NCBI RefSeq assembly: GCF_043290135.1
Contig: NC_134710.1
Location: 3,874,821 to 3,938,820 of the forward strand
DNA: 64,000 nucleotides
DNA from: Rhipicephalus microplus
Taxonomy: Eukaryota; Arthropoda; Arachnida; Ixodida; Ixodidae
Reading direction: 5' to 3'
Position numbers and translations under genes: made by a program
The notes under the pieces: model-generated
The model's input: the letters and a program-made list of their open reading frames with translations, nothing else
Told to the model about the DNA's origin: nothing
Database searches by the model: none
In this document: positions 13,336-61,249 of the stretch, one piece after another
How positions within the stretch are numbered: the stretch's first letter is position 1
How the letters are laid out: each line of letters begins with the position of its first letter

Positions 13336-13539
13336 GCACTTTCTAGCTTGCCCACCAAGCATTGTCAGCCTTAACTCTTCCAAGCAGAGATGCTGGTATT
13401 GCTTTGAATTTGGAATTTTATTGCAAAGGTCATGATAAAAGATCACAAATAACACATTGCGCGCAGGAAAAAAATTACGACTTATAGCAAAGCTCCTAGA
13501 AGTGGTCACCGCTGATGACCACCGTGCCGAAAAAGCCCA

Positions 13540-16360: not shown

Positions 16361-16453
16361 AGTGGTGGAGCGTGCTGTGATTCCCACGTCTTCGTGCTCT
16401 ACTGGTCACCCCTGGAGCTCCGGTCTGGTCAATAGCTGTGGTTTCCAACAGTG

Positions 16454-17149
16454 ATGGCGCAAAATGACGCACCACTTCCTGCCGCCTTCGTCCCATCTGC
16501 TCAGTCTGCTGGGCCTCACCACACCGTGAGTACCTCGCAGCGAGACCCTCCAGTGTTTTCTGGCCTTCGCGGTGAGGACATAGATGAAAGGCTGGACAGT
16601 TATGACCACACCAGTGCTTGCAATCATTTGGATGAGGCAAACAAGTTGCGCTATGTTCCATTTTATCTCAACGAGGTCGCTAAGACGTGGTATTACAACC
16701 ACGAACGCGACTTCACTGATTGGTCAGCATTCACGGGTCAGCTGCGTCATATATTCGGCACTTCTGCAGGACACTCTGAGGTAGCGAAACAGAAGCTTGC
16801 TCCCCAGATCCAGGGGCCCCACAAATCGTACACGTCGTACATTGAAGAGGTCCCGGCTCCCTGCCACTGCGCCCAAAGTGACATGTTGGAGGCCGATCGT
16901 ATTCGTCATGTACTGAAACGCACCAAATTCGTTGCCTTAACTGTTCTTGTCATGCAGAGCCCGACAACAGTTAAAAAATCATTACCACCTGTCATCGCCT
17001 GGACACACTCTACTCAATGCGGCTTCCACACGCGTCCTGTGACACTCGTCTTTGGCGAGCAGAAGCTGCAGGCTCTAATTTGCACCATAGTGAGAGAGGA
17101 ACTTCACAGTCTTGCTCAGGCCAGGGCACCTACTTCATCTGTCCGCTAA
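16454..17149 (+). CDS. Gag of the Gypsy element (partial)
   Basis: The first ATG of the frame is at 16454. The protein carries a retrotransposon-gag core: PPVFSGLRGEDIDERLDSYD (residues ~35-55), KLRYVPFYLNEVAKTWYYNH and WSAFTGQLRHIFG. This core is typical of Ty3/Gypsy capsid proteins. The frame ends at 17149 with a stop. The nucleocapsid knuckle lies downstream at about 17382-17435 (CCYCGVRGHISRFC, a CCHC motif) in a continuation separated by stops, so Gag is broken between capsid and nucleocapsid. Confidence 0.75.
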   Translation: MAQNDAPLPAAFVPSAQSAGPHHTVSTSQRDPPVFSGLRGEDIDERLDSYDHTSACNHLDEANKLRYVPFYLNEVAKTWYYNHERDFTDWSAFTGQLRHIFGTSAGHSEVAKQKLAPQIQGPHKSYTSYIEEVPAPCHCAQSDMLEADRIRHVLKRTKFVALTVLVMQSPTTVKKSLPPVIAWTHSTQCGFHTRPVTLVFGEQKLQALICTIVREELHSLAQARAPTSSVR

Positions 17150-17768
17150 CCCCTTCATAACCTGCGGGAAATTATCAAGGATGAATTGGCGTCGATGACG
17201 AGCGTCGCACGGGCCCCGCCACCGGCGCCCCTAAATGTGCCTACGTATGCCGAAGTCGTCTCACGGCCTTCTGCACCAACTCCACCTGTACCTGCGGACG
17301 TCCTATACGGCCATTGGGCCGTGATGGCAGCCAAGGCACCACTATAGTCACACTTACCTGCCTGGTGCTCTACGCGCCCTGTATGCTGCTACTGTGGCGT
17401 ACGAGGACACATCTCCCGCTTTTGCCGCCAGCACCAGCATGAGCGACGAGGTTATTCTTCGTACGAGAGTTACTGTGCTCTAAGGTCCGACCCCTACGTT
17501 CCAGGAACCTACATTCCCTCGTCACGGCGTTCGCCTTCACCTCCTTTGTCCCACGGTGACCCTCGTTCTTCCCACTCACCCCACCGTCGTTCACCGTCGC
17601 CCTTCCGCCGTACTACTTCGCCTTTACGTTCTGCCCTGATCCCCCTCGACAGCCGTAGGAAAACTAGGAGCTGCAGTTTTTGGCGGAGAAACTGCGTGTC
17701 ATCGAGGTGTCACGATTCCTTCTACGCGCCCTGCAAATATACTGACAGTTTGTGTAGAAGGCATTTCG

Positions 17769-18032
17769 GTGGTTACACTAGTGGACACTGAAGCCACCAT
17801 TTCGTTCATTGATTGCGAACTATGTCATCGTCTGCGAAAAGTTCAAACTCCATATGTTGGTCCGGTGTTATGTGGTGCTAATGACAATGGAATTCACCCG
17901 ATTGGACAATGCAGTGGTCGTGTTGTGATCGACGGAATTCGCCACCATATACAACTTGCTGTGCTTTCTTCATGTGCGCATCCGATTATATTGGGCTGGG
18001 ACTTACTGTCAGCTGCTTCCGCTGTCATTTAG
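17769..18032 (+). pseudogene. Retroviral-type aspartic protease of the Gypsy element
   Basis: The frame reads VTLVDTEATISFIDCELCHRL and later SSCAHPIILGWDLLSA. The second corresponds to the C-terminal ILGWDFL-type motif of Gypsy proteases. The active-site triplet normally reads DTGA or DSGA; here it is DTEA, which would abolish normal activity. It lies between the CCHC knuckle and the RT, in the expected order. Confidence 0.75.
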
Positions 18033-18246
18033 TTTGGTCTGCCCGTTATTCGCATTATGGACACAGAACATTCTAGTGCTTACGATTTCTCGTCGCCTCA
18101 CCTCACCTTGTCGCAGCTGCAGATTTTGTTCTGCCCCCGGCAAATGTATCCTCACCGTTAGGTCGAGCGATACCATTGACGATGACGCAGTGGTTGTCCC
18201 TGATCAGCGCTGCATTTTCTGAGGAATCACCATCGCATGTTGTTTA

Positions 18247-19120
18247 GTGTGGTTTTCGCGCGTTCATGCCAATCTCACCGTCTACTACATGACGACAGAG
18301 CCACAATTACAGCAAGAAGGGTATACTGTTGCCAGCCTTATCGACATAGCACTGGTATGTGTCGTCACTGTATTGTCTCCGTCGTCAGACATTAAGCGTA
18401 CGCCACCAGGCTCATCTAATGCGCTTGAAGCCACTTTGAGTCCATATCTTACTCCATTGCAAACTAATGACTTAATGGCCCTTTTAACGAAACACCAGAC
18501 TTGTTTTCACGTTTGTTTGGATGGCTTGAGTCAAACTAGAGCGGCCTCTTATCGCATCGCCATAGGCGGGTCTGGTATCATTCGCCGTCGCCCTTACCGC
18601 GTGTCGCCTTCAGAACGCAAGGTTATCGAGGAACAAGTCAATGACACTGTCGCGTGCAACGTTATCAGGCCTTCAGCAAGCCCTTAGTCTTCTCCTGTTA
18701 TCTAGTTAAGAAAAAGGAGGGATCCGTGCGACATTGCGTTAATTACAGGATACTAAACAAAATTACCAGGAGGGATGTATGTCCTATGCTTCTGATTGAC
18801 GATGCCCTTGACACCTTACAGGGTGCAGAATACTTTTCAAGCCTCGACCTACGAACGGACTATTGGCCGATCCCGATGTATGAGCCTGATAAAGAGAAGA
18901 CAGCATTTGTTACTCCTGATGGTTTTTTCGAATTCAATGTGATGCCTTTTGGGCTCTGCAATGCCCCAGCCACATTTCAGCGAATGATCGATACGCTGCG
19001 GCGGGGCCTAAAATAGAAGGCCTGTCTTAGTTACCTTGACGACATCGTCATCTTTTCATCCAGCTTCTCGCAGCACCTAGAACGTCTAGACGAGGTACTC
19101 ACATGTGTTAGCTAAAGCTG
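18247..19120 (+). pseudogene. Reverse transcriptase of the Gypsy element, frame-broken
   Basis: The N-terminal connection (SYRIAIGGSGIIRRRPYRVSP) ends at 18687. After a frameshift the palm continues at about 18690-19016 with FSSLDLRTDYWPIPM (motif A, here SLDL), [20 protein letters not shown] and NAPATFQRMID. A stop at 19014-19016 is followed by CLSYLDDIVIFSS, the catalytic YLDD motif. Further frame changes follow. Non-functional. Confidence 0.85.
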
Positions 19121-20468: not shown

Positions 20469-22892
20469 CTAAGGCAACATGCTAGTAAGTGTTCCCGGGC
20501 TTTCGTTCATTCCGTTTGAGAGAGTTTGGAATTTATGGATAAGGAATGACTCTCTAATTTCGCGATCATGGTGTGTCTTGAAACCAGATTCAATTATTGT
20601 GGCTTGGATGTTACTGAAGGAATGACCTGTGTCGGTGACATGTCTTGAAATTGGTAAGTGAGGAAGGGCATGTACATGAGCTCTATGATTGTTGAATCGG
20701 TACCTAAAAGCAGTTTCAGTCTGACCGAGATACTGTAGATGACAAATTGAGCACTCCAGCAGATAAATGGCGTTCTGTGTGTCACAATCGAAATTGCCTC
20801 TGATATTTATTTTGAAATCAGTCGCTGTGCTGGTGACACAGGTTGTCGTAGTCATGTGAGCGCACACTTTGCAGCGAGGTTTTTTACAAGGATGGCAACC
20901 AACCAGTTGAGTGTTGTCATCACATTTGGTTTTAGACGAAGTTAACAAATCGCGTAGATTTTTGCCTCGTCTGTATACAACTCGTGGTGGTTGTGGAAAG
21001 GCTCTTGTAAGGCGTTCACTCTGCTGAAGGATGTTGTGGTGTTTTCGGAGAATACTTGTGACATTAGGCGCCGATGCATTGTGTGTTAAAACTAGGTTTA
21101 CTTCTGAATGACTATTAAGATTTTTCTTGGTTTTGCAGAGCGCTGTGCGTTCTAATGCGTCGGCCCGCCTCACCGCATCATCGATTAACATAGCTGGATA
21201 TTTCTGTTTAAGTAGAGCACTGCGTAGTTCTGTACAGTTGGCGTTAAAGTCGGACTGTTCGGAGCAAATTCGCTTAAAGCGTAACGCCTGGCTATATGGT
21301 ATGCTCAATTTGCAATCCCTCTTGTGGCTACTTTCAAAATGTAAGTACCGGTGCCTGTCAGTGGGCTTGCGGTACAGTTTTGTGGTCAATTGCGTACCAT
21401 GGATACATACTGTAACATCGAGGAAGTCAATGGTGCTTGGTGAGTATGAGTGTGAAAAGGATATGGAGGGATGAACATTGTTAAAAGCGGAAATAAAAGA
21501 CAAAAGTGTCGCTTCTCCGTGTGGCCAAATTATGAAAATGTCGTCAATGAATCTCTTGTAGTAAAAGGGCTTCAACGAACGACTCGACAGGAAGTTGTTC
21601 TCGAGGATTCCCATGAAAATATTTGCGTAATTGGGCCCTATTTTTGTACCCATAGACGTACCGCTGACTTGGACATAATGCACTCCATTAAACTCAAAGT
21701 TATTGTATTGTAAAATCATTTGCAACAGTATAGCCAAAGTGGAGCTATCAATTGGCTTATCAAGAGTGGAGTGATCATAAGCCTCAGTCACGGCGCGTAT
21801 CCCATCCAGGTGAGGTATGTTCGTGTAAAGAGATGCAACATCAAGAGTAACAAGAAGAGCGTTGATAGGTACAGTAAGGTTGTTGATGTCTGACAGAAAG
21901 TGGGTCGTATCACGTAAAAATGACTGGAACGTGGGAGGTATCTGGCTGATCAGGCTATCAACGTAACGCGATAAGCTTTCTGTTACGGTGCCTATGCCGG
22001 AAACAATTGGGCGACCAGGGTTATTTTGTTTATGAATTTTTGGTAACAGGTAGAATCTACCCGCGACTGGATCAAGAGGAATCAGGGAAGTTGCCTTATC
22101 ACTTATTTTTTTATCCTTTATCAGTGCTTTGATTGTGCTACCTAACGTTTCTTTATATTGCGCAGTCGGATCAGCATCGAGTCGTTTGTAAAACGAACTG
22201 TTATTTAACTGGTTGTCAGCTTCAGCGATATATTTAATTGTGTCCATAACCACGACGGCGCCACCCTTGTCCGCAGGTTTGATTGTGATATCAATCCGTT
22301 CGCATAGATCTGCCATAGCTTTCAGTTCTAGATTCGATAGGTTTTTCCGAAAAGAACGTCGCTTGTTATAAGCTTCAATGATATCTCGCGTGACCGCTTT
22401 AATAAATATGTCAAGGTGTTTGTCTCGTTGAGACGCAGGTGTCCAGCGTTTAAGCGACGGTAAAGCTGTTGGATCATCGGCCGGAGTCACTTGATCGAAG
22501 AAGTATTCATGCAATCTCATATTCCGTGCGAAGTTATCTAAATCTTTATACAACTGGAATTCATTGTAGCTGCCACTTGCAGGACAGAAACTTAAACCAC
22601 GAGATAAAAGGCTTACTTGTTCTTTGGATAAAGTGGCGCTTGAAATATTGACAATGTTATCGGGAACAGGGGTGCGCGTGATTTCCCGGATTGGGGGTAG
22701 GGGCGTTGAAATGGGGCGTATTACACCGTCTCTAAGCAACTTCTTGCTTTTATGTGTATCGAGTACGCAGCGTTTCTTTTGTTCATACGTGTTTAAAGAC
22801 GATGATTCCTCGGGAGATAGGCTATACTGATTGAGCAATTGTTGCTCCCTGTTTATCAAGGATTTCAGTGAAGACCGGTAGTGGTTTAGCAC
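20469..22892 (-). CDS. PLE copy A ORF2: RT and GIY-YIG endonuclease, 5'-truncated
   Basis: This inverted copy of the PLE polyprotein lacks the N-terminal ~80 codons of ORF2 and all of ORF1. It retains all catalytic parts: PADKGGAVVVMD, LLVTLDVASLYTNIP (motif A), SGTSMGTKIGPN (motif B), FIDDIFIIW (motif C), IDFLDV, the Cys cluster CHPCKKPRCKVC and the GIY-YIG domain (IYLLECSICHLQYLGQT onward). There are no internal stops. The first codon in the frame is GTG in truncated sequence and not a real start, so this copy has no evident way to be translated from its own promoter. Its FLDV motif matches copy D and not copy C. Confidence 0.85.
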   Translation of the reverse strand: MLNHYRSSLKSLINREQQLLNQYSLSPEESSSLNTYEQKKRCVLDTHKSKKLLRDGVIRPISTPLPPIREITRTPVPDNIVNISSATLSKEQVSLLSRGLSFCPASGSYNEFQLYKDLDNFARNMRLHEYFFDQVTPADDPTALPSLKRWTPASQRDKHLDIFIKAVTRDIIEAYNKRRSFRKNLSNLELKAMADLCERIDITIKPADKGGAVVVMDTIKYIAEADNQLNNSSFYKRLDADPTAQYKETLGSTIKALIKDKKISDKATSLIPLDPVAGRFYLLPKIHKQNNPGRPIVSGIGTVTESLSRYVDSLISQIPPTFQSFLRDTTHFLSDINNLTVPINALLVTLDVASLYTNIPHLDGIRAVTEAYDHSTLDKPIDSSTLAILLQMILQYNNFEFNGVHYVQVSGTSMGTKIGPNYANIFMGILENNFLSSRSLKPFYYKRFIDDIFIIWPHGEATLLSFISAFNNVHPSISFSHSYSPSTIDFLDVTVCIHGTQLTTKLYRKPTDRHRYLHFESSHKRDCKLSIPYSQALRFKRICSEQSDFNANCTELRSALLKQKYPAMLIDDAVRRADALERTALCKTKKNLNSHSEVNLVLTHNASAPNVTSILRKHHNILQQSERLTRAFPQPPRVVYRRGKNLRDLLTSSKTKCDDNTQLVGCHPCKKPRCKVCAHMTTTTCVTSTATDFKINIRGNFDCDTQNAIYLLECSICHLQYLGQTETAFRYRFNNHRAHVHALPHLPISRHVTDTGHSFSNIQATIIESGFKTHHDREIRESFLIHKFQTLSNGMNESPGTLTSMLP

Positions 22893-22900
22893 AATGCCTA

Positions 22901-22990
22901 CTAGCTGAAGTGAAGCATTGCCTACTAGCCTACTAGCTGAAGTGAAGCTGTTCGGAGCAAATTCGCTTTAAGCGAATTTGCTCCGAACAG
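22901..22990. repeat. Head-to-head PLE junction with 21-bp palindrome
   Basis: CTGTTCGGAGCAAATTCGCT at 22948, extended by T to 22968, is the exact inverse of 22970-22990, with one base between. Immediately to the left the segment CCTACTAGCTGAAGTGAAGC occurs twice (about 22905-22924 and 22928-22947). Beyond these lie the two opposed PLE copies. The pattern suggests foldback priming or template slippage during insertion. Confidence 0.9.
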
Positions 22991-23776
22991 TCCGACTTTA
23001 ACGCCAACTGTACAGAACTACGCAGTGCTCTACTTAAACAGAAATATCCAGCTATGTTAATCGATGATGCGGTGAGGCGGGCCGACGCATTAGAACGCAC
23101 AGCGCTCTGCAAAACCAAGAAAAATCTTAATAGTCATTCAGAAGTAAACCTAGTTTTAACACACAATGCATCGGCGCCTAATGTCACAAGTATTCTCCGA
23201 AAACACCACAACATCCTTCAGCAGAGTGAACGCCTTACAAGAGCCTTTCCACAACCACCACGAGTTGTATACAGACGAGGCAAAAATCTACGCGATTTGT
23301 TAACTTCGTCTAAAACCAAATGTGATGACAACACTCAACTGGTTGGTTGCCATCCTTGTAAAAAACCTCGCTGCAAAGTGTGCGCTCACATGACTACGAC
23401 AACCTGTGTCACCAGCACAGCGACTGATTTCAAAATAAATATCAGAGGCAATTTCGATTGTGACACACAGAACGCCATTTATCTGCTGGAGTGCTCAATT
23501 TGTCATCTACAGTATCTCGGTCAGACTGAAACTGCTTTTAGGTACCGATTCAACAATCATAGAGCTCATGTACATGCCCTTCCTCACTTACCAATTTCAA
23601 GACATGTCACCGACACAGGTCATTCCTTCAGTAACATCCAAGCCACAATAATTGAATCTGGTTTCAAGACACACCATGATCGCGAAATTAGAGAGTCATT
23701 CCTTATCCATAAATTCCAAACTCTCTCAAACGGAATGAACGAAAGCCCGGGAACACTTACTAGCATGTTGCCTTAG
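22970..23776 (+). CDS. PLE copy B ORF2, 5'-truncated (end of RT to GIY-YIG)
   Basis: The copy starts within ORF2 at the position equivalent to 27342 of copy C (ALRFKRICSEQ), so the RT catalytic core is lost. The Cys cluster (CHPC..CKVC) and the complete GIY-YIG domain remain open to the shared stop. An ATG at 23054 is the first available but is internal to the original protein. It is a fragment, joined to copy C by its intact 3' region. Confidence 0.85.
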   Translation, partial: KRICSEQSDFNANCTELRSALLKQKYPAMLIDDAVRRADALERTALCKTKKNLNSHSEVNLVLTHNASAPNVTSILRKHHNILQQSERLTRAFPQPPRVVYRRGKNLRDLLTSSKTKCDDNTQLVGCHPCKKPRCKVCAHMTTTTCVTSTATDFKINIRGNFDCDTQNAIYLLECSICHLQYLGQTETAFRYRFNNHRAHVHALPHLPISRHVTDTGHSFSNIQATIIESGFKTHHDREIRESFLIHKFQTLSNGMNESPGTLTSMLP

Positions 23777-24440
23777 TTCGTTAATACACTTAACAATGAC
23801 TGGTGGATGTCTGCCGTGCTTGTTCAGCTATTTTCGTATTATTGCGTACACATTGTCTCCTTTCTATGTCATGCATACCTTTGAAAATTCTTGTATTGAG
23901 TTATTATATATATTTTTTATCAACTTTGCCTTTTCAATTTTCTGTTTATTCACTTCTTATTTTGCTCATTTCATAGATTATCCTTAGAGATTTGTGTTCT
24001 CATGCAAGAATTATGTGTCCTTTGGTACCCTGTATGAATCTGCGCAGCGCGTGTTTCTATTCATCCAATTTTATTTTATTTTTTATTTTTTAGTGCTGTC
24101 TTATAAACCTGCTTCGATGCACACAATTTACCATGTATGTAAGATATGCCATATGACTATTGTGAAATGTCACGTGTATTTCATACAATCACATCTATCG
24201 ATTCACTTGTATTCTTGATCTGCAACTTAGCATGAAAATCGAAAAATTACGCATGCTCGTGATACTGGAGCCAGCCGCCCAAATAGGCCCTGCGCGGCCT
24301 CTCATCATTTACTCCGACGAAGGCAGGCCCACCTGCCGAAACGTTAGTAAAAACTGCGTTTCGTACGTTTGTCGTCTTCCTTTTTTCGACTGCATTTCCT
24401 ACCGGAACCATTGGATTTATCTCTCGCCTATTTCCCTGCT
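23777..24440 (+). repeat. PLE terminal region between copies B and C
   Basis: The 3' untranslated/terminal-repeat region separates the ORF2 stop of copy B from the ORF1 ATG of copy C. It is identical in layout to 28149-28812. T-rich sequence is followed by the hammerhead-like core and then a stretch ending TCTCGCCTAT just before ORF1. Small open frames inside recur in each copy only because the DNA is repeated. Confidence 0.75.
24311..24346 (+). ncRNA. Hammerhead-ribozyme-like core, copy B/C boundary
   Basis: CCGACGA, stem GGCAGG/CCTGCC with loop CCCA, then GAAAC. A downstream GTTTCG could pair with CGAAAC to extend stem III. Shares the C-for-U change with the other copies. Confidence 0.6.
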
Positions 24441-25475
24441 ATGGAAATCCGGCAGACAACGTCGAAACGCACTATCTGGAAATATCCGAAGGTCCCAATA
24501 TCTACAACGGTGTTGGGCGATTCACAGACCAAGTACTTGTTCCAGTACTTCGACCCTCTGCTGCAAGGAACTCCGGCATTCGTAACACAGCCGGGTGCAT
24601 TTATAAGTGATGTTGAGTCTCTGCTCGACCTAGTTCCTTCCTCGACAAGAACTCTGGTTCTTCATGTCGGTAGCAACGACCTGACAAGAAAAAGTGGGCT
24701 AGCAACGTTCCGTTGTTATCGACACCTCCTTGACGTAATTCACGAAGAGCGTCCAGAAATAAGCCATGTATACGCCACGCTTGTCCTGCCACGAGCCACG
24801 AATCGACGTCGAAGAAACAACAACACAGTGTTCGTTCACTGTTTCAACCGAGAGGCAAGCCACTTCAACAGCCTATTGCGGAGTTTCTGCAAAGGCTTTA
24901 GTCATTTGTCTATTTTGGACCACATGTTCGAGTGGCTACCACCCGGGCGTGTACTGGCCGCTGATGGACTGCACGTGAGCTTTGAGGGCGTCGCGTTGAT
25001 GTCAAGTCACATCAGGCAGCTGTGCTTCGACTCCCCGGGTGAGGCGAGCTCAACGAGTTGGAGTGACTGTGTTTCTTCGCCCGAGTGCGTTCATGGGCAG
25101 ACTACGCGAATCAGCCACCAGACCACATCAAAGGCCGTGAATACACGAAAAACGCAACGTGACACAAGGCAATCAAAGAATAACAATCTGAGTACCAATA
25201 CTCGCTCTTCTGGCATCAAGCCGTCTATGGCAGAGTCAAGAACCAGCACCATGCTCGCCGATTTGAAGTCTACAACTTCTACCAAGCAGCAAGCTTCTGG
25301 TCGTGCTTGCGCGTCCCGCAACAAGAAAGACCACTCCTCCGCTGCCCAAAAAAACACGGCGCCAGCTGAGTCTACCCTGCAAGCCCCAGGAAAAGCGGCC
25401 ACTCCTTCTACGGGATTCAGGTACCCTCTTCGAAAGCAATACTCGGACGTTTTAAAGAGAAAACCTAATAATTGA
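24441..25475 (+). CDS. PLE copy C ORF1: SGNH/GDSL-hydrolase-like protein
   Basis: From the first ATG the protein has 344 residues; the frame is open further upstream but only from a TTG. Residues 1-200 have the block layout of an SGNH hydrolase: block I VLGDSQ with candidate nucleophile Ser28, block III HVGSND with Asn79, and block V ADGLHVSFEG with Asp175 and His178. Catalytic residues are thus all present. The C-terminal ~130 residues are Ser/Thr/Lys/Arg-rich and probably disordered, plausibly nucleic-acid-binding. Esterase-like ORF1 proteins are established in some CR1/L2-type LINEs, and GDSL-type genes have been reported in rotifer Terminons, but they are not a usual part of simple PLEs. 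It ends with TGA in the same frame as ORF2. Confidence 0.85.
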   Translation: MEIRQTTSKRTIWKYPKVPISTTVLGDSQTKYLFQYFDPLLQGTPAFVTQPGAFISDVESLLDLVPSSTRTLVLHVGSNDLTRKSGLATFRCYRHLLDVIHEERPEISHVYATLVLPRATNRRRRNNNTVFVHCFNREASHFNSLLRSFCKGFSHLSILDHMFEWLPPGRVLAADGLHVSFEGVALMSSHIRQLCFDSPGEASSTSWSDCVSSPECVHGQTTRISHQTTSKAVNTRKTQRDTRQSKNNNLSTNTRSSGIKPSMAESRTSTMLADLKSTTSTKQQASGRACASRNKKDHSSAAQKNTAPAESTLQAPGKAATPSTGFRYPLRKQYSDVLKRKPNN

Positions 25476-25502
25476 CTACAGCGCTCGTTGTCCAACGATG
25501 CG
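25473..25502 (+). promoter_or_regulatory. Putative stop-codon readthrough signal between ORF1 and ORF2 (copy C)
   Basis: The ORF1 stop is TGA followed by CTA, the best-known leaky context (UGA CUA). Six bases after the stop a stem-loop begins: CGCTCGTT (25482-25489) pairs with AACGA and GCG (25494-25502) around loop GTCC, with one bulged T. ORF1 and ORF2 share the frame, and ORF2 has no in-frame ATG until 26097, after conserved N-terminal sequence. Readthrough is inferred, not shown. Confidence 0.7.
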
Positions 25503-28148
25503 CCTTGGAAGTGTTCTAAAGAATTTCAAAAAATTAGAAAATCTGTAGAAAAACGTATACGTTATGAGCTACATGTGTCCACTCTAGAAGCGTATTTAGC
25601 GGCGTCTATTCCACCTAGGGGTTTAAGTCTCTGTCTGCAGCCTGCCACATCAGAGTTATCTGAGTGCAATGCAAAGAAGTGGCGTGAAACACTAAAGAAT
25701 GCTTCACTTCAGCTAGTAGGCATTGTGCTAAACCACTACCGGTCTTCACTGAAATCCTTGATAAACAGGGAGCAACAATTGCTCAATCAGTATAGCCTAT
25801 CTCCCGAGGAATCATCGTCTTTAAACACGTATGAACAAAAGAAACGCTGCGTACTCGATACACATAAAAGCAAGAAGTTGCTTAGAGACGGTGTAATACG
25901 CCCCATTTCAACGCCCCTACCCCCAATCCGGGAAATCACGCGCACCCCTGTTCCCGATAACATTGTCAATATTTCAAGCGCCACTTTATCCAAAGAACAA
26001 GTAAGCCTTTTATCTCGTGGTTTAAGTTTCTGTCCTGCAAGTGGCAGCTACAATGAATTCCAGTTGTATAAAGATTTAGATAACTTCGCACGGAATATGA
26101 GATTGCATGAATACTTCTTCGATCAAGTGACTCCGGCCGATGATCCAACAGCTTTACCGTCGCTTAAACGCTGGACACCTGCGTCTCAACGAGACAAACA
26201 CCTTGACATATTTATTAAAGCGGTCACGCGAGATATCATTGAAGCTTATAACAAGCGACGTTCTTTTCGGAAAAACCTATCGAATCTAGAACTGAAAGCT
26301 ATGGCAGATCTATGCGAACGGATTGATATCACAATCAAACCTGCGGACAAGGGTGGCGCCGTCGTGGTTATGGACACAATTAAATATATCGCTGAAGCTG
26401 ACAACCAGTTAAATAACAGTTCGTTTTACAAACGACTCGATGCTGATCCGACTGCGCAATATAAAGAAACGTTAGGTAGCACAATCAAAGCACTGATAAA
26501 GGATAAAAAAATAAGTGATAAGGCAACTTCCCTGATTCCTCTTGATCCAGTCGCGGGTAGATTCTACCTGTTACCAAAAATTCATAAACAAAATAACCCT
26601 GGTCGCCCAATTGTTTCCGGCATAGGCACCGTAACAGAAAGCTTATCGCGTTACGTTGATAGCCTGATCAGCCAGATACCTCCCACGTTCCAGTCATTTT
26701 TACGTGATACGACCCACTTTCTGTCAGACATCAACAACCTTACTGTACCTATCAACGCTCTTCTTGTTACTCTTGATGTTGCATCTCTTTACACGAACAT
26801 ACCTCACCTGGATGGGATACGCGCCGTGACTGAGGCTTATGATCACTCCACTCTTGATAAGCCAATTGATAGCTCCACTTTGGCTATACTGTTGCAAATG
26901 ATTTTACAATACAATAACTTTGAGTTTAATGGAGTGCATTATGTCCAAGTCAGCGGTACGTCTATGGGTACAAAAATAGGGCCCAATTACGCAAATATTT
27001 TCATGGGAATCCTCGAGAACAACTTCCTGTCGAGTCGTTCGTTGAAGCCCTTTTACTACAAGAGATTCATTGACGACATTTTCATAATTTGGCCACACGG
27101 AGAAGCGACACTTTTGTCTTTTATTTCCGCTTTTAACAATGTTCATCCCTCCATATCCTTTTCACACTCATACTCACCAAGCACCATTGACTTCCTCGGT
27201 GTTACAGTATGTATCCATGGTACGCAATTGACCACAAAACTGTACCGCAAGCCCACTGACAGGCACCGGTACTTACATTTTGAAAGTAGCCACAAGAGGG
27301 ATTGCAAATTGAGCATACCATATAGCCAGGCGTTACGCTTTAAGCGAATTTGCTCCGAACAGTCCGACTTTAACGCCAACTGTACAGAACTACGCAGTGC
27401 TCTACTTAAACAGAAATATCCAGCTATGTTAATCGATGATGCGGTGAGGCGGGCCGACGCATTAGAACGCACAGCGCTCTGCAAAACCAAGAAAAATCTT
27501 AATAGTCATTCAGAAGTAAACCTAGTTTTAACACACAATGCATCGGCGCCTAATGTCACAAGTATTCTCCGAAAACACCACAACATCCTTCAGCAGAGTG
27601 AACGCCTTACAAGAGCCTTTCCACAACCACCACGAGTTGTATACAGACGAGGCAAAAATCTACGCGATTTGTTAACTTCGTCTAAAACCAAATGTGATGA
27701 CAACACTCAACTGGTTGGTTGCCATCCTTGTAAAAAACCTCGCTGCAAAGTGTGCGCTCACATGACTACGACAACCTGTGTCACCAGCACAGCGACTGAT
27801 TTCAAAATAAATATCAGAGGCAATTTCGATTGTGACACACAGAACGCCATTTATCTGCTGGAGTGCTCAATTTGTCATCTACAGTATCTCGGTCAGACTG
27901 AAACTGCTTTTAGGTACCGATTCAACAATCATAGAGCTCATGTACATGCCCTTCCTCACTTACCAATTTCAAGACATGTCACCGACACAGGTCATTCCTT
28001 CAGTAACATCCAAGCCACAATAATTGAATCTGGTTTCAAGACACACCATGATCGCGAAATTAGAGAGTCATTCCTTATCCATAAATTCCAAACTCTCTCA
28101 AACGGAATGAACGAAAGCCCGGGAACACTTACTAGCATGTTGCCTTAG
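25476..28148 (+). CDS. PLE copy C ORF2: reverse transcriptase with GIY-YIG endonuclease
   Basis: About 890 codons follow the ORF1 TGA without interruption. Numbered from 25488, the N-terminal PLE domain (PRGLSL, KKWRETLKNASLQLV) is at 40-80, then PADKGGAVVVMD (~284), FYLLPKIHKQNNPGRPIVSG (~360), motif A LLVTLDVASLYTNIP (~425), motif B SGTSMGTKIGPN (~488) and motif C FIDDIF (527-532). TKLYRKPTDRHRYL follows. The Cys cluster CHPCKKPRCKVC is near 745-756, and the GIY-YIG nuclease (IYLLEC..YLGQT) is from ~788 to the end. Such enzymes copy RNA at a nicked target. In this copy residue 571 is Gly (codon GGT at 27198) where copies A and D have Asp in the conserved FLDV motif, which may weaken the enzyme. 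No own start codon is evident. Confidence 0.92.
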   Translation, partial: LQRSLSNDAPWKCSKEFQKIRKSVEKRIRYELHVSTLEAYLAASIPPRGLSLCLQPATSELSECNAKKWRETLKNASLQLVGIVLNHYRSSLKSLINREQQLLNQYSLSPEESSSLNTYEQKKRCVLDTHKSKKLLRDGVIRPISTPLPPIREITRTPVPDNIVNISSATLSKEQVSLLSRGLSFCPASGSYNEFQLYKDLDNFARNMRLHEYFFDQVTPADDPTALPSLKRWTPASQRDKHLDIFIKAVTRDIIEAYNKRRSFRKNLSNLELKAMADLCERIDITIKPADKGGAVVVMDTIKYIAEADNQLNNSSFYKRLDADPTAQYKETLGSTIKALIKDKKISDKATSLIPLDPVAGRFYLLPKIHKQNNPGRPIVSGIGTVTESLSRYVDSLISQIPPTFQSFLRDTTHFLSDINNLTVPINALLVTLDVASLYTNIPHLDGIRAVTEAYDHSTLDKPIDSSTLAILLQMILQYNNFEFNGVHYVQVSGTSMGTKIGPNYANIFMGILENNFLSSRSLKPFYYKRFIDDIFIIWPHGEATLLSFISAFNNVHPSISFSHSYSPSTIDFLGVTVCIHGTQLTTKLYRKPTDRHRYLHFESSHKRDCKLSIPYSQALRFKRICSEQSDFNANCTELRSALLKQKYPAMLIDDAVRRADALERTALCKTKKNLNSHSEVNLVLTHNASAPNVTSILRKHHNILQQSERLTRAFPQPPRVVYRRGKNLRDLLTSSKTKCDDNTQLVGCHPCKKPRCKVCAHMTTTTCVTSTATDFKINIRGNFDCDTQNAIYLLECSICHLQYLGQTETAFRYRFNNHRAHVHALPHLPISRHVTDTGHSFSNIQATIIESGFKTHHDREIRESFLIHKFQTLSNGMNESPGTLTSMLP

Positions 28149-28812: not shown

Positions 28813-29847
28813 ATGGAAATCCGGCAGACAACGTCGAAACGCACTATCTGGAAATATCCGAAGGTCCCAATATCTACAACGGTGTTGGGCGATTCACAGA
28901 CCAAGTACTTGTTCCAGTACTTCGACCCTCTGCTGCAAGGAACTCCGGCATTCGTAACACAGCCGGGTGCATTTATAAGTGATGTTGAGTCTCTGCTCGA
29001 CCTAGTTCCTTCCTCGACAAGAACTCTGGTTCTTCATGTCGGTAGCAACGACCTGACAAGAAAAAGTGGGCTAGCAACGTTCCGTTGTTATCGACACCTC
29101 CTTGACGTAATTCACGAAGAGCGTCCAGAAATAAGCCATGTATACGCCACGCTTGTCCTGCCACGAGCCACGAATCGACGTCGAAGAAACAACAACACAG
29201 TGTTCGTTCACTGTTTCAACCGAGAGGCAAGCCACTTCAACAGCCTATTGCGGAGTTTCTGCAAAGGCTTTAGTCATTTGTCTATTTTGGACCACATGTT
29301 CGAGTGGCTACCACCCGGGCGTGTACTGGCCGCTGATGGACTGCACGTGAGCTTTGAGGGCGTCGCGTTGATGTCAAGTCACATCAGGCAGCTGTGCTTC
29401 GACTCCCCGGGTGAGGCGAGCTCAACGAGTTGGAGTGACTGTGTTTCTTCGCCCGAGTGCGTTCATGGGCAGACTACGCGAATCAGCCACCAGACCACAT
29501 CAAAGGCCGTGAATACACGAAAAACGCAACGTGACACAAGGCAATCAAAGAATAACAATCTGAGTACCAATACTCGCTCTTCTGGCATCAAGCCGTCTAT
29601 GGCAGAGTCAAGAACCAGCACCATGCTCGCCGATTTGAAGTCTACAACTTCTACCAAGCAGCAAGCTTCTGGTCGTGCTTGCGCGTCCCGCAACAAGAAA
29701 GACCACTCCTCCGCTGCCCAAAAAAACACGGCGCCAGCTGAGTCTACCCTGCAAGCCCCAGGAAAAGCGGCCACTCCTTCTACGGGATTCAGGTACCCTC
29801 TTCGAAAGCAATACTCGGACGTTTTAAAGAGAAAACCTAATAATTGA
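28813..29847 (+). CDS. PLE copy D ORF1: SGNH/GDSL-hydrolase-like protein
   Basis: The protein is identical to that of copy C: 344 residues from the ATG, with the GDSQ, GSND and DGLH blocks intact (Ser28, Asn79, Asp175, His178) and the basic, Ser/Thr-rich tail. It is preceded by the terminal region of copy C and ends in the same TGA. Conservation of an intact open frame in both full units argues that ORF1 is a functional part of the element and not a passenger. Confidence 0.85.
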   Translation: MEIRQTTSKRTIWKYPKVPISTTVLGDSQTKYLFQYFDPLLQGTPAFVTQPGAFISDVESLLDLVPSSTRTLVLHVGSNDLTRKSGLATFRCYRHLLDVIHEERPEISHVYATLVLPRATNRRRRNNNTVFVHCFNREASHFNSLLRSFCKGFSHLSILDHMFEWLPPGRVLAADGLHVSFEGVALMSSHIRQLCFDSPGEASSTSWSDCVSSPECVHGQTTRISHQTTSKAVNTRKTQRDTRQSKNNNLSTNTRSSGIKPSMAESRTSTMLADLKSTTSTKQQASGRACASRNKKDHSSAAQKNTAPAESTLQAPGKAATPSTGFRYPLRKQYSDVLKRKPNN

Positions 29848-29874
29848 CTACAGCGCTCGTTGTCCAACGATGCG
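29845..29874 (+). promoter_or_regulatory. Putative stop-codon readthrough signal (copy D)
   Basis: TGA CTA CAG and the same stem-loop (29854-29874) as in copy C. ORF1 and ORF2 are in one frame here too. Confidence 0.7.
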
Positions 29875-32520
29875 CCTTGGAAGTGTTCTAAAGAATTTCA
29901 AAAAATTAGAAAATCTGTAGAAAAACGTATACGTTATGAGCTACATGTGTCCACTCTAGAAGCGTATTTAGCGGCGTCTATTCCACCTAGGGGTTTAAGT
30001 CTCTGTCTGCAGCCTGCCACATCAGAGTTATCTGAGTGCAATGCAAAGAAGTGGCGTGAAACACTAAAGAATGCTTCACTTCAGCTAGTAGGCATTGTGC
30101 TAAACCACTACCGGTCTTCACTGAAATCCTTGATAAACAGGGAGCAACAATTGCTCAATCAGTATAGCCTATCTCCCGAGGAATCATCGTCTTTAAACAC
30201 GTATGAACAAAAGAAACGCTGCGTACTCGATACACATAAAAGCAAGAAGTTGCTTAGAGACGGTGTAATACGCCCCATTTCAACGCCCCTACCCCCAATC
30301 CGGGAAATCACGCGCACCCCTGTTCCCGATAACATTGTCAATATTTCAAGCGCCACTTTATCCAAAGAACAAGTAAGCCTTTTATCTCGTGGTTTAAGTT
30401 TCTGTCCTGCAAGTGGCAGCTACAATGAATTCCAGTTGTATAAAGATTTAGATAACTTCGCACGGAATATGAGATTGCATGAATACTTCTTCGATCAAGT
30501 GACTCCGGCCGATGATCCAACAGCTTTACCGTCGCTTAAACGCTGGACACCTGCGTCTCAACGAGACAAACACCTTGACATATTTATTAAAGCGGTCACG
30601 CGAGATATCATTGAAGCTTATAACAAGCGACGTTCTTTTCGGAAAAACCTATCGAATCTAGAACTGAAAGCTATGGCAGATCTATGCGAACGGATTGATA
30701 TCACAATCAAACCTGCGGACAAGGGTGGCGCCGTCGTGGTTATGGACACAATTAAATATATCGCTGAAGCTGACAACCAGTTAAATAACAGTTCGTTTTA
30801 CAAACGACTCGATGCTGATCCGACTGCGCAATATAAAGAAACGTTAGGTAGCACAATCAAAGCACTGATAAAGGATAAAAAAATAAGTGATAAGGCAACT
30901 TCCCTGATTCCTCTTGATCCAGTCGCGGGTAGATTCTACCTGTTACCAAAAATTCATAAACAAAATAACCCTGGTCGCCCAATTGTTTCCGGCATAGGCA
31001 CCGTAACAGAAAGCTTATCGCGTTACGTTGATAGCCTGATCAGCCAGATACCTCCCACGTTCCAGTCATTTTTACGTGATACGACCCACTTTCTGTCAGA
31101 CATCAACAACCTTACTGTACCTATCAACGCTCTTCTTGTTACTCTTGATGTTGCATCTCTTTACACGAACATACCTCACCTGGATGGGATACGCGCCGTG
31201 ACTGAGGCTTATGATCACTCCACTCTTGATAAGCCAATTGATAGCTCCACTTTGGCTATACTGTTGCAAATGATTTTACAATACAATAACTTTGAGTTTA
31301 ATGGAGTGCATTATGTCCAAGTCAGCGGTACGTCTATGGGTACAAAAATAGGGCCCAATTACGCAAATATTTTCATGGGAATCCTCGAGAACAACTTCCT
31401 GTCGAGTCGTTCGTTGAAGCCCTTTTACTACAAGAGATTCATTGACGACATTTTCATAATTTGGCCACACGGAGAAGCGACACTTTTGTCTTTTATTTCC
31501 GCTTTTAACAATGTTCATCCCTCCATATCCTTTTCACACTCATACTCACCAAGCACCATTGACTTCCTCGATGTTACAGTATGTATCCATGGTACGCAAT
31601 TGACCACAAAACTGTACCGCAAGCCCACTGACAGGCACCGGTACTTACATTTTGAAAGTAGCCACAAGAGGGATTGCAAATTGAGCATACCATATAGCCA
31701 GGCGTTACGCTTTAAGCGAATTTGCTCCGAACAGTCCGACTTTAACGCCAACTGTACAGAACTACGCAGTGCTCTACTTAAACAGAAATATCCAGCTATG
31801 TTAATCGATGATGCGGTGAGGCGGGCCGACGCATTAGAACGCACAGCGCTCTGCAAAACCAAGAAAAATCTTAATAGTCATTCAGAAGTAAACCTAGTTT
31901 TAACACACAATGCATCGGCGCCTAATGTCACAAGTATTCTCCGAAAACACCACAACATCCTTCAGCAGAGTGAACGCCTTACAAGAGCCTTTCCACAACC
32001 ACCACGAGTTGTATACAGACGAGGCAAAAATCTACGCGATTTGTTAACTTCGTCTAAAACCAAATGTGATGACAACACTCAACTGGTTGGTTGCCATCCT
32101 TGTAAAAAACCTCGCTGCAAAGTGTGCGCTCACATGACTACGACAACCTGTGTCACCAGCACAGCGACTGATTTCAAAATAAATATCAGAGGCAATTTCG
32201 ATTGTGACACACAGAACGCCATTTATCTGCTGGAGTGCTCAATTTGTCATCTACAGTATCTCGGTCAGACTGAAACTGCTTTTAGGTACCGATTCAACAA
32301 TCATAGAGCTCATGTACATGCCCTTCCTCACTTACCAATTTCAAGACATGTCACCGACACAGGTCATTCCTTCAGTAACATCCAAGCCACAATAATTGAA
32401 TCTGGTTTCAAGACACACCATGATCGCGAAATTAGAGAGTCATTCCTTATCCATAAATTCCAAACTCTCTCAAACGGAATGAACGAAAGCCCGGGAACAC
32501 TTACTAGCATGTTGCCTTAG
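29848..32520 (+). CDS. PLE copy D ORF2: reverse transcriptase with GIY-YIG endonuclease
   Basis: An uninterrupted ORF2 equal to that of copy C except for the FLDV motif, which here keeps the usual Asp (codon at 31570-31572). All RT motifs (LDVASLYTN, GTSMGTKIGPN, FIDD), the Cys cluster and the GIY-YIG domain are present. Of the four copies this is the one whose ORF1 and ORF2 both look fully intact, so it is the best candidate for an active master copy. As in copy C there is no in-frame ATG for about 200 codons after the ORF1 stop. Confidence 0.92.
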   Translation, partial: LQRSLSNDAPWKCSKEFQKIRKSVEKRIRYELHVSTLEAYLAASIPPRGLSLCLQPATSELSECNAKKWRETLKNASLQLVGIVLNHYRSSLKSLINREQQLLNQYSLSPEESSSLNTYEQKKRCVLDTHKSKKLLRDGVIRPISTPLPPIREITRTPVPDNIVNISSATLSKEQVSLLSRGLSFCPASGSYNEFQLYKDLDNFARNMRLHEYFFDQVTPADDPTALPSLKRWTPASQRDKHLDIFIKAVTRDIIEAYNKRRSFRKNLSNLELKAMADLCERIDITIKPADKGGAVVVMDTIKYIAEADNQLNNSSFYKRLDADPTAQYKETLGSTIKALIKDKKISDKATSLIPLDPVAGRFYLLPKIHKQNNPGRPIVSGIGTVTESLSRYVDSLISQIPPTFQSFLRDTTHFLSDINNLTVPINALLVTLDVASLYTNIPHLDGIRAVTEAYDHSTLDKPIDSSTLAILLQMILQYNNFEFNGVHYVQVSGTSMGTKIGPNYANIFMGILENNFLSSRSLKPFYYKRFIDDIFIIWPHGEATLLSFISAFNNVHPSISFSHSYSPSTIDFLDVTVCIHGTQLTTKLYRKPTDRHRYLHFESSHKRDCKLSIPYSQALRFKRICSEQSDFNANCTELRSALLKQKYPAMLIDDAVRRADALERTALCKTKKNLNSHSEVNLVLTHNASAPNVTSILRKHHNILQQSERLTRAFPQPPRVVYRRGKNLRDLLTSSKTKCDDNTQLVGCHPCKKPRCKVCAHMTTTTCVTSTATDFKINIRGNFDCDTQNAIYLLECSICHLQYLGQTETAFRYRFNNHRAHVHALPHLPISRHVTDTGHSFSNIQATIIESGFKTHHDREIRESFLIHKFQTLSNGMNESPGTLTSMLP

Positions 32521-34190: not shown

Positions 34191-35171
34191 TCATTCGGTA
34201 AAAGATGCAGCGTCCAAATCGATGTCATTGCAGTCGTGCAGTAACATGGCGTCAAGCATCGTCATCACTTCACGGCCATGAAGGAGACTGAACGGCGTTC
34301 TTCGTGTAGTTTCTTGCTGCGCTGTATTATAGGTGAACGTGATGTATGGTAGAATGTCGTCCCAGTTCTTGTGATCCACGTCAACGTACCTACTAAAAAT
34401 GTCGAAAATAGTCTTGTTGAGGCGTTCTGTTAAGCCGTTGGTATGTGTATGATAGGAAGTGGTTTTCCGATGGGCTGTTCCACTGAGCTCAAGCACTGTC
34501 TTCAGGAGCGTGGCCGTGAAAGCGGTACCTCGATCCATTTTTATGATTGTCGGAGCACCGTGCCTCAGGACGGTATTTTCTATGAAGAATCCTGTGGTTT
34601 CAACGGCGGTGCCACTTGACAAAGCCTTTGTTTCTGCGTAGCCTGTAAGATAATCAGTGGCGACTATTACCCACTTGTTGCCAGCATGGGAAGTCGAATA
34701 TGGTCCGAGTAGATCCATTCCAATTTGGGCAAAAGGTACCGTGGGCACTTGAATGGGTTGTAATAGTCCAGATTGTTTTAACGGTGGTGATTTTCGTCGT
34801 TTGCAATCGAGGCACGTGCGCACGTAATGCTTCACAATAGCTGGAAGTCTTGGCCAGTAATATTTTTGTTGGATTCTGGCCAATGTGCGTGTGTATCCGA
34901 GATGACCGGACTTTCGCTTATCGTGGCAAGCACTAAGTATCTTCTTACGGATTGACGTCGGAACGACAAGTAGGTGGCTGCTTCCTCTGGTAGAAAAGTT
35001 CTTCTTATAGAGAACACCACTACGTAAGCGGAATGACGGCAGGCTCCTTGCAAATATTCTAGAAACGGTTGTTGTCCGGCCATTCAAACATTCAATAAGG
35101 GGAAGCAACTCGCTGTCTTCCTTCTGCTTGCAAGAAATCGTAGTGGTGTCGACGACTCCTACAAATGCCAT
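34191..35171 (-). CDS. Integrase of the truncated Gypsy element
   Basis: A 326-codon open frame encodes most of a Ty3/Gypsy integrase. The zinc-binding domain shows ACHDKRKSGHLGY and TCLDCKRRK (HHCC). The catalytic core keeps its three acidic residues: MDLLGPYS, KMDRGTAF and NGLTERLNKT. The C-terminal part ends TPFSLLHGREVM. The domain is open over its full length although the flanking RT and RNase H are broken, so this is the best-preserved part of the element. Its start is internal to the former polyprotein. Confidence 0.85.
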   Translation of the reverse strand: MAFVGVVDTTTISCKQKEDSELLPLIECLNGRTTTVSRIFARSLPSFRLRSGVLYKKNFSTRGSSHLLVVPTSIRKKILSACHDKRKSGHLGYTRTLARIQQKYYWPRLPAIVKHYVRTCLDCKRRKSPPLKQSGLLQPIQVPTVPFAQIGMDLLGPYSTSHAGNKWVIVATDYLTGYAETKALSSGTAVETTGFFIENTVLRHGAPTIIKMDRGTAFTATLLKTVLELSGTAHRKTTSYHTHTNGLTERLNKTIFDIFSRYVDVDHKNWDDILPYITFTYNTAQQETTRRTPFSLLHGREVMTMLDAMLLHDCNDIDLDAASFTE

Positions 35172-35213
35172 GTTGTCATCTCCTGTGTCATCGTAGCGCT
35201 TTATCTGTGACCT

Positions 35214-36750
35214 TCATAAGCAATCGGTGTCGGCGTGCTGCCATCCGGACTTATACACGACTGTCATATCAAACTCTTGAAGGCGTAAGCTCGACCGTGT
35301 GAGCTGACCAGACGGGTCTTTCAAGTTGGTCAGCCAGCAGAGGGAATGACGGTCGCTGAATACTTGGAAAGAACGCCCGTAGAGGTACGGACGAAACTTC
35401 ATAACCGCCCATGCGACAGCAAGACACTCTGTTTCCGTTGTGGAGTAGTTGGACTCGATCGGCGCGGGAAAGAGCCTTACTAGCATATGCGATCACACGT
35501 TCGGCTGAGTCTAGCCACTGGACGAGTACAGCACCTAAATCCACGTTGCTGGCATCTGTGTGGACCATGGTAGGAGCATCCTCCTCGAAGTCAGCAAGCA
35601 CAGGCGGTGTCTGCAGGCGTTGTCGGAGATCGTCAAATGCCGCTTGTTGATCGTTGCCCCATGTGAACGAAACGTCTTCTCTTGTGAGTGGTGTTAACGG
35701 CGAGGCTATGTGTCAGAAATTGGCAATAAACCTTCGGTAATATGCGCATAAGCCAAGGAAACGCCTGACTGCTTTCTAATCTGTTGGCACCGGAAATTTT
35801 TTGACGGCTGCAATCTTACTGCGATCAGGTCTAACACCTTCATGGCTCACCACATGGCCTAAAAATTGGAGCTCCTTGAAACCGAAATGACACTTCTGCG
35901 GTTTCAGTGTTTGGCCATCAGACCTTATTGCCCTGAATACCGATAGCAGCCTGCTCAGGTGTTCCTCAAATATTTTTGAAAAAAAAATCAATGACGTCGT
36001 CCAGATAGACCAGACATGTCTGCCACTTAAGGCCTGGTAGAACGGTATCCACTAGTCTCTGAAATGTTGCGGGGGCTGAGCACAATCCGATGGGCAAGTT
36101 TTAAATGCATAAAGCCCATCAGGCGTTACAAAAGCCGTTTTTTCTCTATCTCGCTCGTCGACCTCAATTTGCAAATACTCACTTTTGAGGTCCATTGACG
36201 AGAAGTAGCGTGCACACCTCAGCCTGTCGAGTGAATAATCGATGCGCAGTAATGGGTACACGTCTTTCTTTGTCACAAGGTTCAACACAAAATCGGTAGT
36301 CAACACAAAATTGCTAGCTTCCGTCTTCTTTTTAACCAGCACTACCGGCGATGTCCAAGCGTTTCTTGACGGCTGGATGACGTCATCATGGAGCATTTTC
36401 TTTACTTGTTCCTCGATTGCTTCACGCTCTGTCGGTGCTACGTGGCATGGGTTCTGTCGTATTGGCCTTGCAGTCTCCTCCGTTATTATCTGGTGCTTCG
36501 TCAGTGGCGTTTGACTGACCCTCGAGGTGGATGAAAAACAGTCTTTGAACTTATGAAGAAGATCTACTAGCCGCTGTCTCTGCGCTGGTGACATATCTGT
36601 GCTTACGTCAATAGGCGGGGGGGTTGACGTGGCTTGCGGCTCGTCCTGTTGTACTACACAGCACTCGCGGATTTTGGTGATCTCGTCGAAGTAGGCAACT
36701 GTAGTGCCTTGTGTAATGTGTCGTCGCTCGTTGGTAAAATTTGTCAACAA
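35214..36750 (-). pseudogene. Reverse transcriptase and RNase H of the truncated Gypsy element
   Basis: The RT begins near 36600 with HQIITEETARPIRQNPCHVAP, continues through FSSMDLKSEYLQIEV and TAFVTPDGLYAFK, then shifts frame at the MPFGL motif. The VYLDDVI motif is readable at about 36010-35985, followed by FLGHVVSHEGVRPDRSKI. RNase H (ADFEEDAPTMVHTDASNVDLGAVLVQ, then [11 protein letters not shown]) is at 35601-35214 in two frames. Several frameshifts and stops make this region non-functional. Confidence 0.85.
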
Positions 36751-36832
36751 AACCTCCGCTTCACCGCACGCAACATCGACGATACTTCTGGAAATTGCAA
36801 CACCGCGAGAGAGTAGAAGCGTAGAAGAGTAG

Positions 36833-37318
36833 AAGATTTGGTATTATGTGACTTGTATGGATGACGAAAGTAAATGACACGTCCAAACATGATAATCATG
36901 CTATATGTGTCATGTAAAACATGACTGCATGCTACGCTAATAGCGCGCTCGCGGCCGTTTTGCTAGCTCCACATATACCAAATTAGGTATTACGTGACGT
37001 AAATTAACGACGAAGGTAGATGGCACTTCCAAACAGTAATCATGAGATGCGTGTCTTGTAAAAGATGACTACACGCTACGCTCGTAGGGCGCTTGCGGCG
37101 GTTTCACTAGTTCCACATATGTTAAGTTTGGTGTTACGTGAGGTGTAGGGACAACGAAGATGAATGACACGTCCGAACATGACAATAATGATATGCATGT
37201 CATGTAAATTAGGACTACACGCTACGCTCATAGCGCGCTCACGGCTGTTTCACTATCTCCACGTGTACCAAGTTTGGTATTACGTAACGTGAGTAGACAA
37301 AGAAAGTAAAATGACACG
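36833..37318. repeat. Satellite with ~146-bp period, left block
   Basis: The motif (A/G)TGACACGTCCAAACAT and variants recurs at about 36876, 37022, 37166 and 37313. Intervals are 144-147 bp. Other shared marks per unit are CTACGCTCATAGCGCGCTC and CCACATATACCAAGTTTGGT. Copies differ at many positions. The array continues at 46950 on the far side of an inserted element. Confidence 0.85.
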
Positions 37319-38485: not shown

Positions 38486-38491
38486 CCTTAA

Positions 38492-61232: not shown

Positions 61233-61249
61233 GGTCTTGAGGCAAGTGT

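Follow-up and report, generated by a model that had tools for sequence, protein, structure and literature searches.

Readthrough of the UGA stop codon at position 25473 is the best explanation for how the second open reading frame (ORF2) of a tandemly repeated Penelope-like element (PLE) is expressed, and, judged from its sequence, we place this reading just on the probable side. The element lies in the 64-kb stretch of DNA analysed here (the window); its first frame (ORF1) encodes an esterase-like protein and ORF2 a reverse transcriptase (RT). Readthrough needs the fewest extra assumptions, because the two frames are the same, a single stop in a leaky context lies between them, no in-frame AUG is available to the start of ORF2, and the relatives of ORF1 share the end of its tail. 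The features of the element that concern the boundary are the following.

24441 to 25475, + strand: ORF1, 344 aa, with an SGNH/GDSL esterase-like domain (residues about 10–200; Pfam, profile and fold comparisons) and a probably disordered tail with a YxLR motif and a final Asn, followed by TGA
25473 to 25478, + strand: TGA-CTA, the ORF1 stop and first ORF2 codon, candidate readthrough hexamer
25476 to 28148, + strand: ORF2, 890 codons, first in-frame ATG at 26097, with an N-terminal domain, RT and GIY-YIG-like nuclease region by alignment to relatives
25481 to 25503, + strand: hairpin of 9 bp, loop GTCC, one bulged T, 5-nt spacer after the stop
25515 to 26096, + strand: N-terminal part of ORF2 from codon 14, upstream of any in-frame ATG, with Ser14, Phe17 and Arg21 invariant in the rows that reach them
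26742 to 27104, + strand: RVT_1 match (Pfam) in ORF2, residues 423–543

The element forms a tandem array with a period of 4372 bp and a repeated pseudo-LTR region, and its membership of the PLEs is seen in the tandem copies, the repeated region and a truncated inverted copy, all of them present in the window. The array is made up as follows.

20472 to 22925, − strand: inverted 5′-truncated ORF2 copy that begins at residue 73, without the ORF1–ORF2 boundary
22952 to 23773, + strand: 3′ fragment of ORF2 (residues 617–890, by sequence comparison) that starts the tandem array
24314 to 24343, + strand: core resembling a hammerhead, upstream of ORF1 within the repeated (pseudo-LTR) region, without an Rfam match
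24441 to 28148, + strand: full copy C (ORF1 24441 to 25475, ORF2 25476 to 28148)
28813 to 29847, + strand: copy D ORF1, protein identical to that of copy C
29848 to 32520, + strand: copy D ORF2, one residue different from copy C

Copies C and D have one mismatch (27199) over 4372 aligned bases. A preliminary description of this DNA had pointed to the same boundary layout in copy D; the layout is indeed present there from 29845 onward, but since only 1 of 4372 positions differs from copy C this is duplicated DNA, and copy D was rejected as independent support. For the type of stop, the CTA and the hairpin the evidence thus comes from one near-identical copy pair, and the case for conservation rests on proteins. 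The mismatch (27199 in copy C, 31571 in copy D) gives Gly at ORF2 position 575 in copy C, where the relatives have a nearly invariant Asp that is also found in copy D and in the inverted copy, and copy C may be defective through this replacement. The hammerhead-like core recurs at 24314, 28686 and 33058 (+) and at 19931 (−); it has a C instead of what we take to be U4 of the consensus, and Rfam gave no match for these cores of the repeated region. Minimal type I hammerhead motifs occur in PLE pseudo-LTRs (excerpts of PMC7761336). Fragments of other, more distant PLE ORF2s lie at 978–1506 (−) and 11132–13353 (+), are 34–52 % identical in pieces and have no adjoining ORF1 match. The window also carries ORF fragments that by eye are Ty3/gypsy-, BEL- and LINE-like, at 16436–18687 (+), 34191–35213 (−), 36052–36843 (−), 37973–38491 (−), 53030–53809 (−) and 60179–61346 (−), and two mutually related tandem arrays with a unit of ~146 bp (36837–37325 and 46907–47397).

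ORF1 starts with the ATG at 24441. Its similarity to the Pfam GDSL family PF13472 (E-value 0.0024) is below the curated cut-off; this family is matched at an E-value of 0.001 or less by 38 of the 45 members of the ORF1 alignment, the window's own ORF1 not being among them. The best solved relative of the ORF1 profile (E-value 4.6×10−11) is PDB 4c1b, an 'ORF1-encoded protein' that we take to be the esterase of the LINE ZfL2-1. The predicted ORF1 structure has block means above 90 pLDDT for residues 11–110 and matches SGNH/GDSL hydrolase folds, so that by profile and predicted fold ORF1 belongs with the SGNH proteins and is related to the LINE ORF1 esterase. Beyond residue ~200 the structure is poorly predicted and the tail is probably disordered. 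There are 53 ORF1 relatives besides the window's own, ranging from 191 to 556 aa, and the named ones all come from ticks (Hyalomma, Rhipicephalus, Dermacentor, Haemaphysalis and Ixodes); ORF1 stands apart from ORF2 in the protein databases. Esterases have already been recorded in CR1, RTEX and Penelope-like elements (excerpts of PMC3905857).

The RT of ORF2 is related to those of telomerase and PLEs. The RVT_1 match (E-value 9.8×10−7, 29.1 bits) falls just under the cut-off of 29.6 bits, and the best fold match of the predicted structure (mean pLDDT 87.3) is the telomerase TERT; the ORF2 profile had no matches among PDB sequences. Pfam gave no GIY-YIG match in the window's own ORF2, and GIY-YIG is above the cut-off in the C-terminal region of two relatives, P0024 (48 % identical) and P0039 (47 %). 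Homologous proteins of ORF2 number 1177, and among the best 120 of these the closer named ones are from Ixodes and Ornithodoros; one named turtle protein (P0107, 40 % identical) is also among those 120. On the strength of the named relatives of both ORFs we take the host to be a tick. A profile search of genome contigs found five remote loci, one of which (L001, on a mussel-symbiont contig) breaks off within ORF2-like sequence, with a Met near the start of its domain; viral contigs searched with the ORF2 and ORF1 alignments yielded no relatives.

At the boundary ORF1 ends with AAT TGA (the stop at 25473–25475), the next codons are CTA CAG, and the same frame stays open from 25476 to 28145 (890 codons), as originally described. 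The absence of an in-frame ATG until 26097 also holds: this is codon 208, and 207 codons precede it. The claim that a conserved N-terminal domain lies upstream of that ATG is borne out by an alignment of the window's ORF2 with 38 relatives drawn from the best 120 of the 1177 matches, in which conservation begins at codon 14, and by the AlphaFold model, in which residues 1–11 have pLDDT below 50 and helix 1 starts at residue 15. Ser14 and Phe17 are identical in all seven rows that reach them, Arg21 in 10 of 10, Lys26 and Arg27 in 12 of 12, and further in the same is true of His33 (16 of 16) and of Pro47 and Gly49 (22 of 22). The complete enzyme needs translation from codon 14 or earlier, because conservation and fold begin there, and the product must therefore contain a stretch that, in the unspliced RNA, lies out of reach of any in-frame AUG. 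Seven ATGs lie between the stop and 26097, all in frame +1, where they open 4–21 codons. Avoidance of Met in the ORF2 N-terminus was considered as a signal and rejected, since relatives carry Met there.

If the UGA is an ordinary stop, ORF2 would have to be started on its own, whether by non-AUG initiation, by reinitiation after ORF1, by internal entry of ribosomes or from a separate, shorter RNA, and the starts of the relatives bear directly on this possibility. Only 6 of the 38 begin at or before codon 15, 23 begin between codons 16 and 60, and nine later; because 32 of the 38 begin after codon 15, most have no shared start codon. These figures are to be read with the reservations that rows may be cut by contig ends and that three with odd or Met-less starts (P0014, P0027 and P0041) were counted as late. 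Five of the six early ones have a called start, and the sixth (P0024, from Ixodes persulcatus and labelled partial) lacks a Met. The first Met in gene calls may stand for GTG or TTG, and P0001, which is nearly identical to the window element, has Met where the window has GTG; equally, the five early called starts could be real AUGs. Three of them (P0004, P0007 and P0012) are called at position 13, directly before the invariant Ser14, and might be a shared, real start. In the window itself codon 5 of ORF2 is the near-cognate TTG and codon 12 is AAG. There are precedents too, in that LINEs such as SART1 and L1 couple to or reinitiate at ORF2 (excerpts of PMC5972666) and the Tca2 gag–pol junction has promoter activity (excerpts of PMC2194720). 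However, a start of its own would require neither the shared frame with a single intervening stop nor the UGA-CUA, and the starts of the relatives are scattered rather than at one common site. Reinitiation at the first AUG after the stop (25498) was rejected, because this AUG is not in the ORF2 frame and the frame it opens runs for 16 codons. We consider an independent start of ORF2 unlikely.

The stop itself lies in a context that favours readthrough, the reading we prefer. UGA-CUA is a high-readthrough context in mammals (PMC4132726, PMC4359377, both in excerpt), where by itself it gives 1.5 % readthrough (excerpts of PMC4132726), and it is uncommon at stops, with 144 candidates in the human genome (excerpts of PMC4359377). 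Position +7 counts against readthrough, being C where the efficient CUAG contexts have G (excerpts of PMC4132726). Selenocysteine insertion at the UGA was considered and rejected, as Rfam, used with its gathering thresholds, matched nothing between 19500 and 33500.

The end of ORF1 carries a further sign of constraint. Only two features of the ORF1 tails are not variable among the relatives, a YxLR-type motif and the final residue. The motif, which lies near the end of the poorly predicted tail (25422–25475 in the window), is kept in 33 of the 53 relatives, and the last residue of these 33 tails is Asn in 20, Asp in five, Lys in four, and Glu, Cys, Val and Phe in one each; Asn, Asp, Lys or Glu thus comes last in 30 of the 33, against a share of 5.9 % for Asn elsewhere in those tails. 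The 20 relatives left out of this count, which lack YxLR or YPxR within 35 residues of the end (gene models that are truncated or fused, and divergent tails), end with Asn (2), Asp (5), Glu (1), Tyr (1) and others (11), which brings the final Asn to 22 over all 53. Since the ORF1 relatives share kinship, the bias was judged by cluster counts, and clusters with a majority of Asn are 19 of 30 at 80 % identity (the window element included) and eight of 15 at 60 % identity. As a control, among ORF2 relatives, whose stop is an ordinary terminator, final Asn was found in none of 42 and a final residue with a NAN codon in 10 of the 42, some of these rows possibly being cut at the 3′ end. Because the last codon is constrained across the ORF1 relatives and not in the ORF2 control, the codon adjoining the ORF1 stop suggests a signal at the nucleotide level there; adjacency to a PLE ORF2 is seen for one ORF1 relative (P0175, below) and is assumed for the others. 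Most readthrough in mammalian cells occurs with A or G at −1 (excerpts of PMC12233894), and the constraint misfits the simplest expectation for readthrough, because in the conserved Asn codon, AAY, that position is occupied by a pyrimidine. Whether the signal serves readthrough, splicing or something else, the constrained Asn codon provides a new handle on it.

The AAY codon also has a place in the case for partial splicing, by which a leader exon with its own AUG, or part of ORF1, would be joined to ORF2 in frame past the TGA. The AAYTGAC at the end of ORF1 resembles a branch-point motif, and the AG at 25511, a weak acceptor, lies 36 nt farther on. Several in-frame pairs can be drawn, namely a leader ATG at 24117 with a donor at 24135, an ATG at 24133 with a donor at 24139, and an ORF1 donor at 24975, each to an acceptor at 25481 or 25511. 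The in-frame donors, however, score 1.8–2.6 bits with rough consensus matrices that are not trained on ticks; the acceptors at 25481 and 25511 are at the 53rd and 62nd percentiles of all AGs in both ORFs, and since these two acceptors have the same phase, chance alone would bring roughly one donor in three into frame. The donor with the best score (25039, the only one in ORF1 that scores at least 2) cannot be joined in frame to either of the acceptors that precede codon 15, and the better acceptors at 25640 and 25719 would delete the conserved residues 14–55 or 14–81. PLEs themselves provide support of another kind, since they are known for retaining introns in genomic copies, a transcribed copy in A. 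vaga has an intron inside its ORF, and PLE machinery has copied intron-containing host genes (excerpts of PMC3846280).

A search for ORF1 in proteins of fusion length (about 680–2160 aa) found one among 2339 candidates, the Hyalomma protein P0175, whose gene model is spliced across the boundary. In it an ORF1 part, 86 % identical to P0122 over 287 residues, runs directly into residues 54–105 of ORF2, skipping the ORF1 tail, the stop and the start of ORF2, and the splice, if real, removes the conserved residues 14–53. As annotated, this protein shows that the order ORF1–ORF2 exists in another tick genome, Hyalomma; its value as evidence for splicing is lessened by the fact that this sole fused protein is a gene model and that the search yielded no fused protein from nameless assembled contigs. 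Splicing is less favoured than readthrough, and we regard it as distinctly improbable.

The preliminary description had placed a hairpin of eight pairs shortly after the stop; the GTCC loop and the single bulge are as it stated, but there are nine pairs, between 25481 and 25503. The segment 25473–25512 folds with a z-score of −1.92 (10 of 200 shuffles are as good), and longer stretches fold less unusually (25473–25530, z −1.13, 24 of 200; 25430–25560, z −1.23, 18 of 200). The 40-nt window at the TGA ranks 69th in stability among 3667 such windows of both ORFs, an equally stable fold follows 48 of 2399 TGAs (both strands of the window, both copies included), and eight of 499 GC-matched windows fold as well. 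The hairpin is thus unusual at about the 2 % level, which is weak evidence and supportive of readthrough at best. It might instead be an RNA element for the element's own RT, or a chance fold, unrelated to termination, a reading compatible with any of the other explanations and favoured by this modest stability. Readthrough structures act a few nucleotides after the stop, as this one would, and when the folds that follow the window's 38 TGACTA sites are compared, with both strands and the copies counted, the hairpin ranks first in stability; both points count against an unrelated role. For reverse transcription, a purified PLE protein from Anolis depends on RNA in which the first 172 nt of its ORF are present (excerpts of PMC11167929), and because of this need for RNA from the start of the ORF a structure at the boundary could equally serve reverse transcription. 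An unrelated role is a real possibility that falls somewhat short of being probable.

It is very improbable that the stop is a disabling mutation of a once-fused ORF in a dead family. Copy C is already changed at the nearly invariant Asp (27199), as a decaying family might be, but both ORFs are otherwise open, in several tick genera the relatives of ORF1 likewise terminate behind the YxLR tail, and the single fusion-length protein with ORF1 among the 2339 candidates skips the boundary.

Readthrough would yield two products from one RNA. Most ribosomes would stop at the UGA at 25473 and release the esterase-like ORF1 protein, and a small fraction would misread the UGA, whose UGA-CUA context is leaky, perhaps with the help of the hairpin that begins 5 nt farther on, and would carry on in frame into ORF2. 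The product of misreading would be a fusion of esterase, RT and nuclease of 1235 residues, in which the first 11–13 residues of ORF2 may act as a flexible linker. By analogy with Gag-Pol, the stop may fix the ratio of enzyme to ORF1 protein. We infer the occurrence of readthrough, its rate, the role of the hairpin and the presence of the same signal in other species. The points that weigh against readthrough, besides the C at +7, are the called starts at or before codon 15 in five of the 38 relatives (three of them at position 13), a hairpin that is only ~2 % unusual, the pyrimidine that AAY puts at −1, and the presence of weak in-frame splice sites. The Candida element Tca2 offers a caution: its gag and pol are separated by a UGA that has a pseudoknot on its 3′ side and gave no readthrough in Saccharomyces cerevisiae, with pol made from the full RNA (excerpts of PMC2194720). 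A broader reading is that the whole tick PLE clade makes its RT-nuclease only as a C-terminal extension of the esterase, through a leaky UGA after the clade-constant Asn codon; this we put forward tentatively, as conceivable and a little less than likely.

PLE biology is little known, and a leaky stop, if true, would mean that a PLE carries within itself the means to set the ratio of esterase-like protein to enzyme, and that stop-codon readthrough has been adopted by a class of retroelements outside the retroviruses and LTR elements. The clade-wide reading, if true, would extend expression of the gag-pol type to a third class of retroelement, one in which an esterase stands where gag is otherwise found. 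Readthrough in retroelements is already known, as are esterases in PLEs. The earlier remark that no described PLE uses readthrough agrees with our search of the open literature, in the excerpts of which no translational readthrough is reported in a PLE ('readthrough' in these passages refers to transcripts or transcription) and no report combines an esterase ORF1 with stop readthrough in a PLE.

Among known systems, the endonuclease-containing PLEs (PMC11167929, PMC3846280, in excerpt) are alike in their telomerase-like RT, in a GIY-YIG-type nuclease (seen here in the relatives) and in tandem copies with a pseudo-LTR; canonical PLEs, however, encode RT and nuclease in a single ORF (excerpts of PMC11167929), whereas in the tick PLE an esterase-like ORF1 precedes an ORF2 without an AUG of its own. 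The esterase ORF1 of CR1/L2 LINEs (ZfL2-1; PMC3905857) and the GDSL ORFs of rotifer Terminons (PMC5408684, PMC6431247) are similarly SGNH/GDSL esterases borne by retroelements, although the excerpted descriptions of ZfL2-1 and the Terminons include no in-frame stop joining esterase to RT, unlike the tick PLE. Vertebrate genes with UGA-CUA(G) readthrough (OPRL1, AQP4, MDH1 and LDHB; excerpts of PMC4132726, PMC4359377 and PMC12233894) share the UGA-CUA and in-frame conserved coding sequence downstream, but their extensions are short and +7 is G, whereas in the tick PLE the candidate readthrough would add a whole RT-nuclease ORF and +7 is C. The gag-stop-pol arrangements of MuLV (PMC4178896) and Tca2 (PMC2194720), again from excerpts, are alike in having two in-frame ORFs, one stop, the enzyme second and an RNA structure on the 3′ side; there gag comes first (followed in Tca2 by a potential pseudoknot), and in the tick PLE the first ORF is esterase-like and the structure a simple hairpin.
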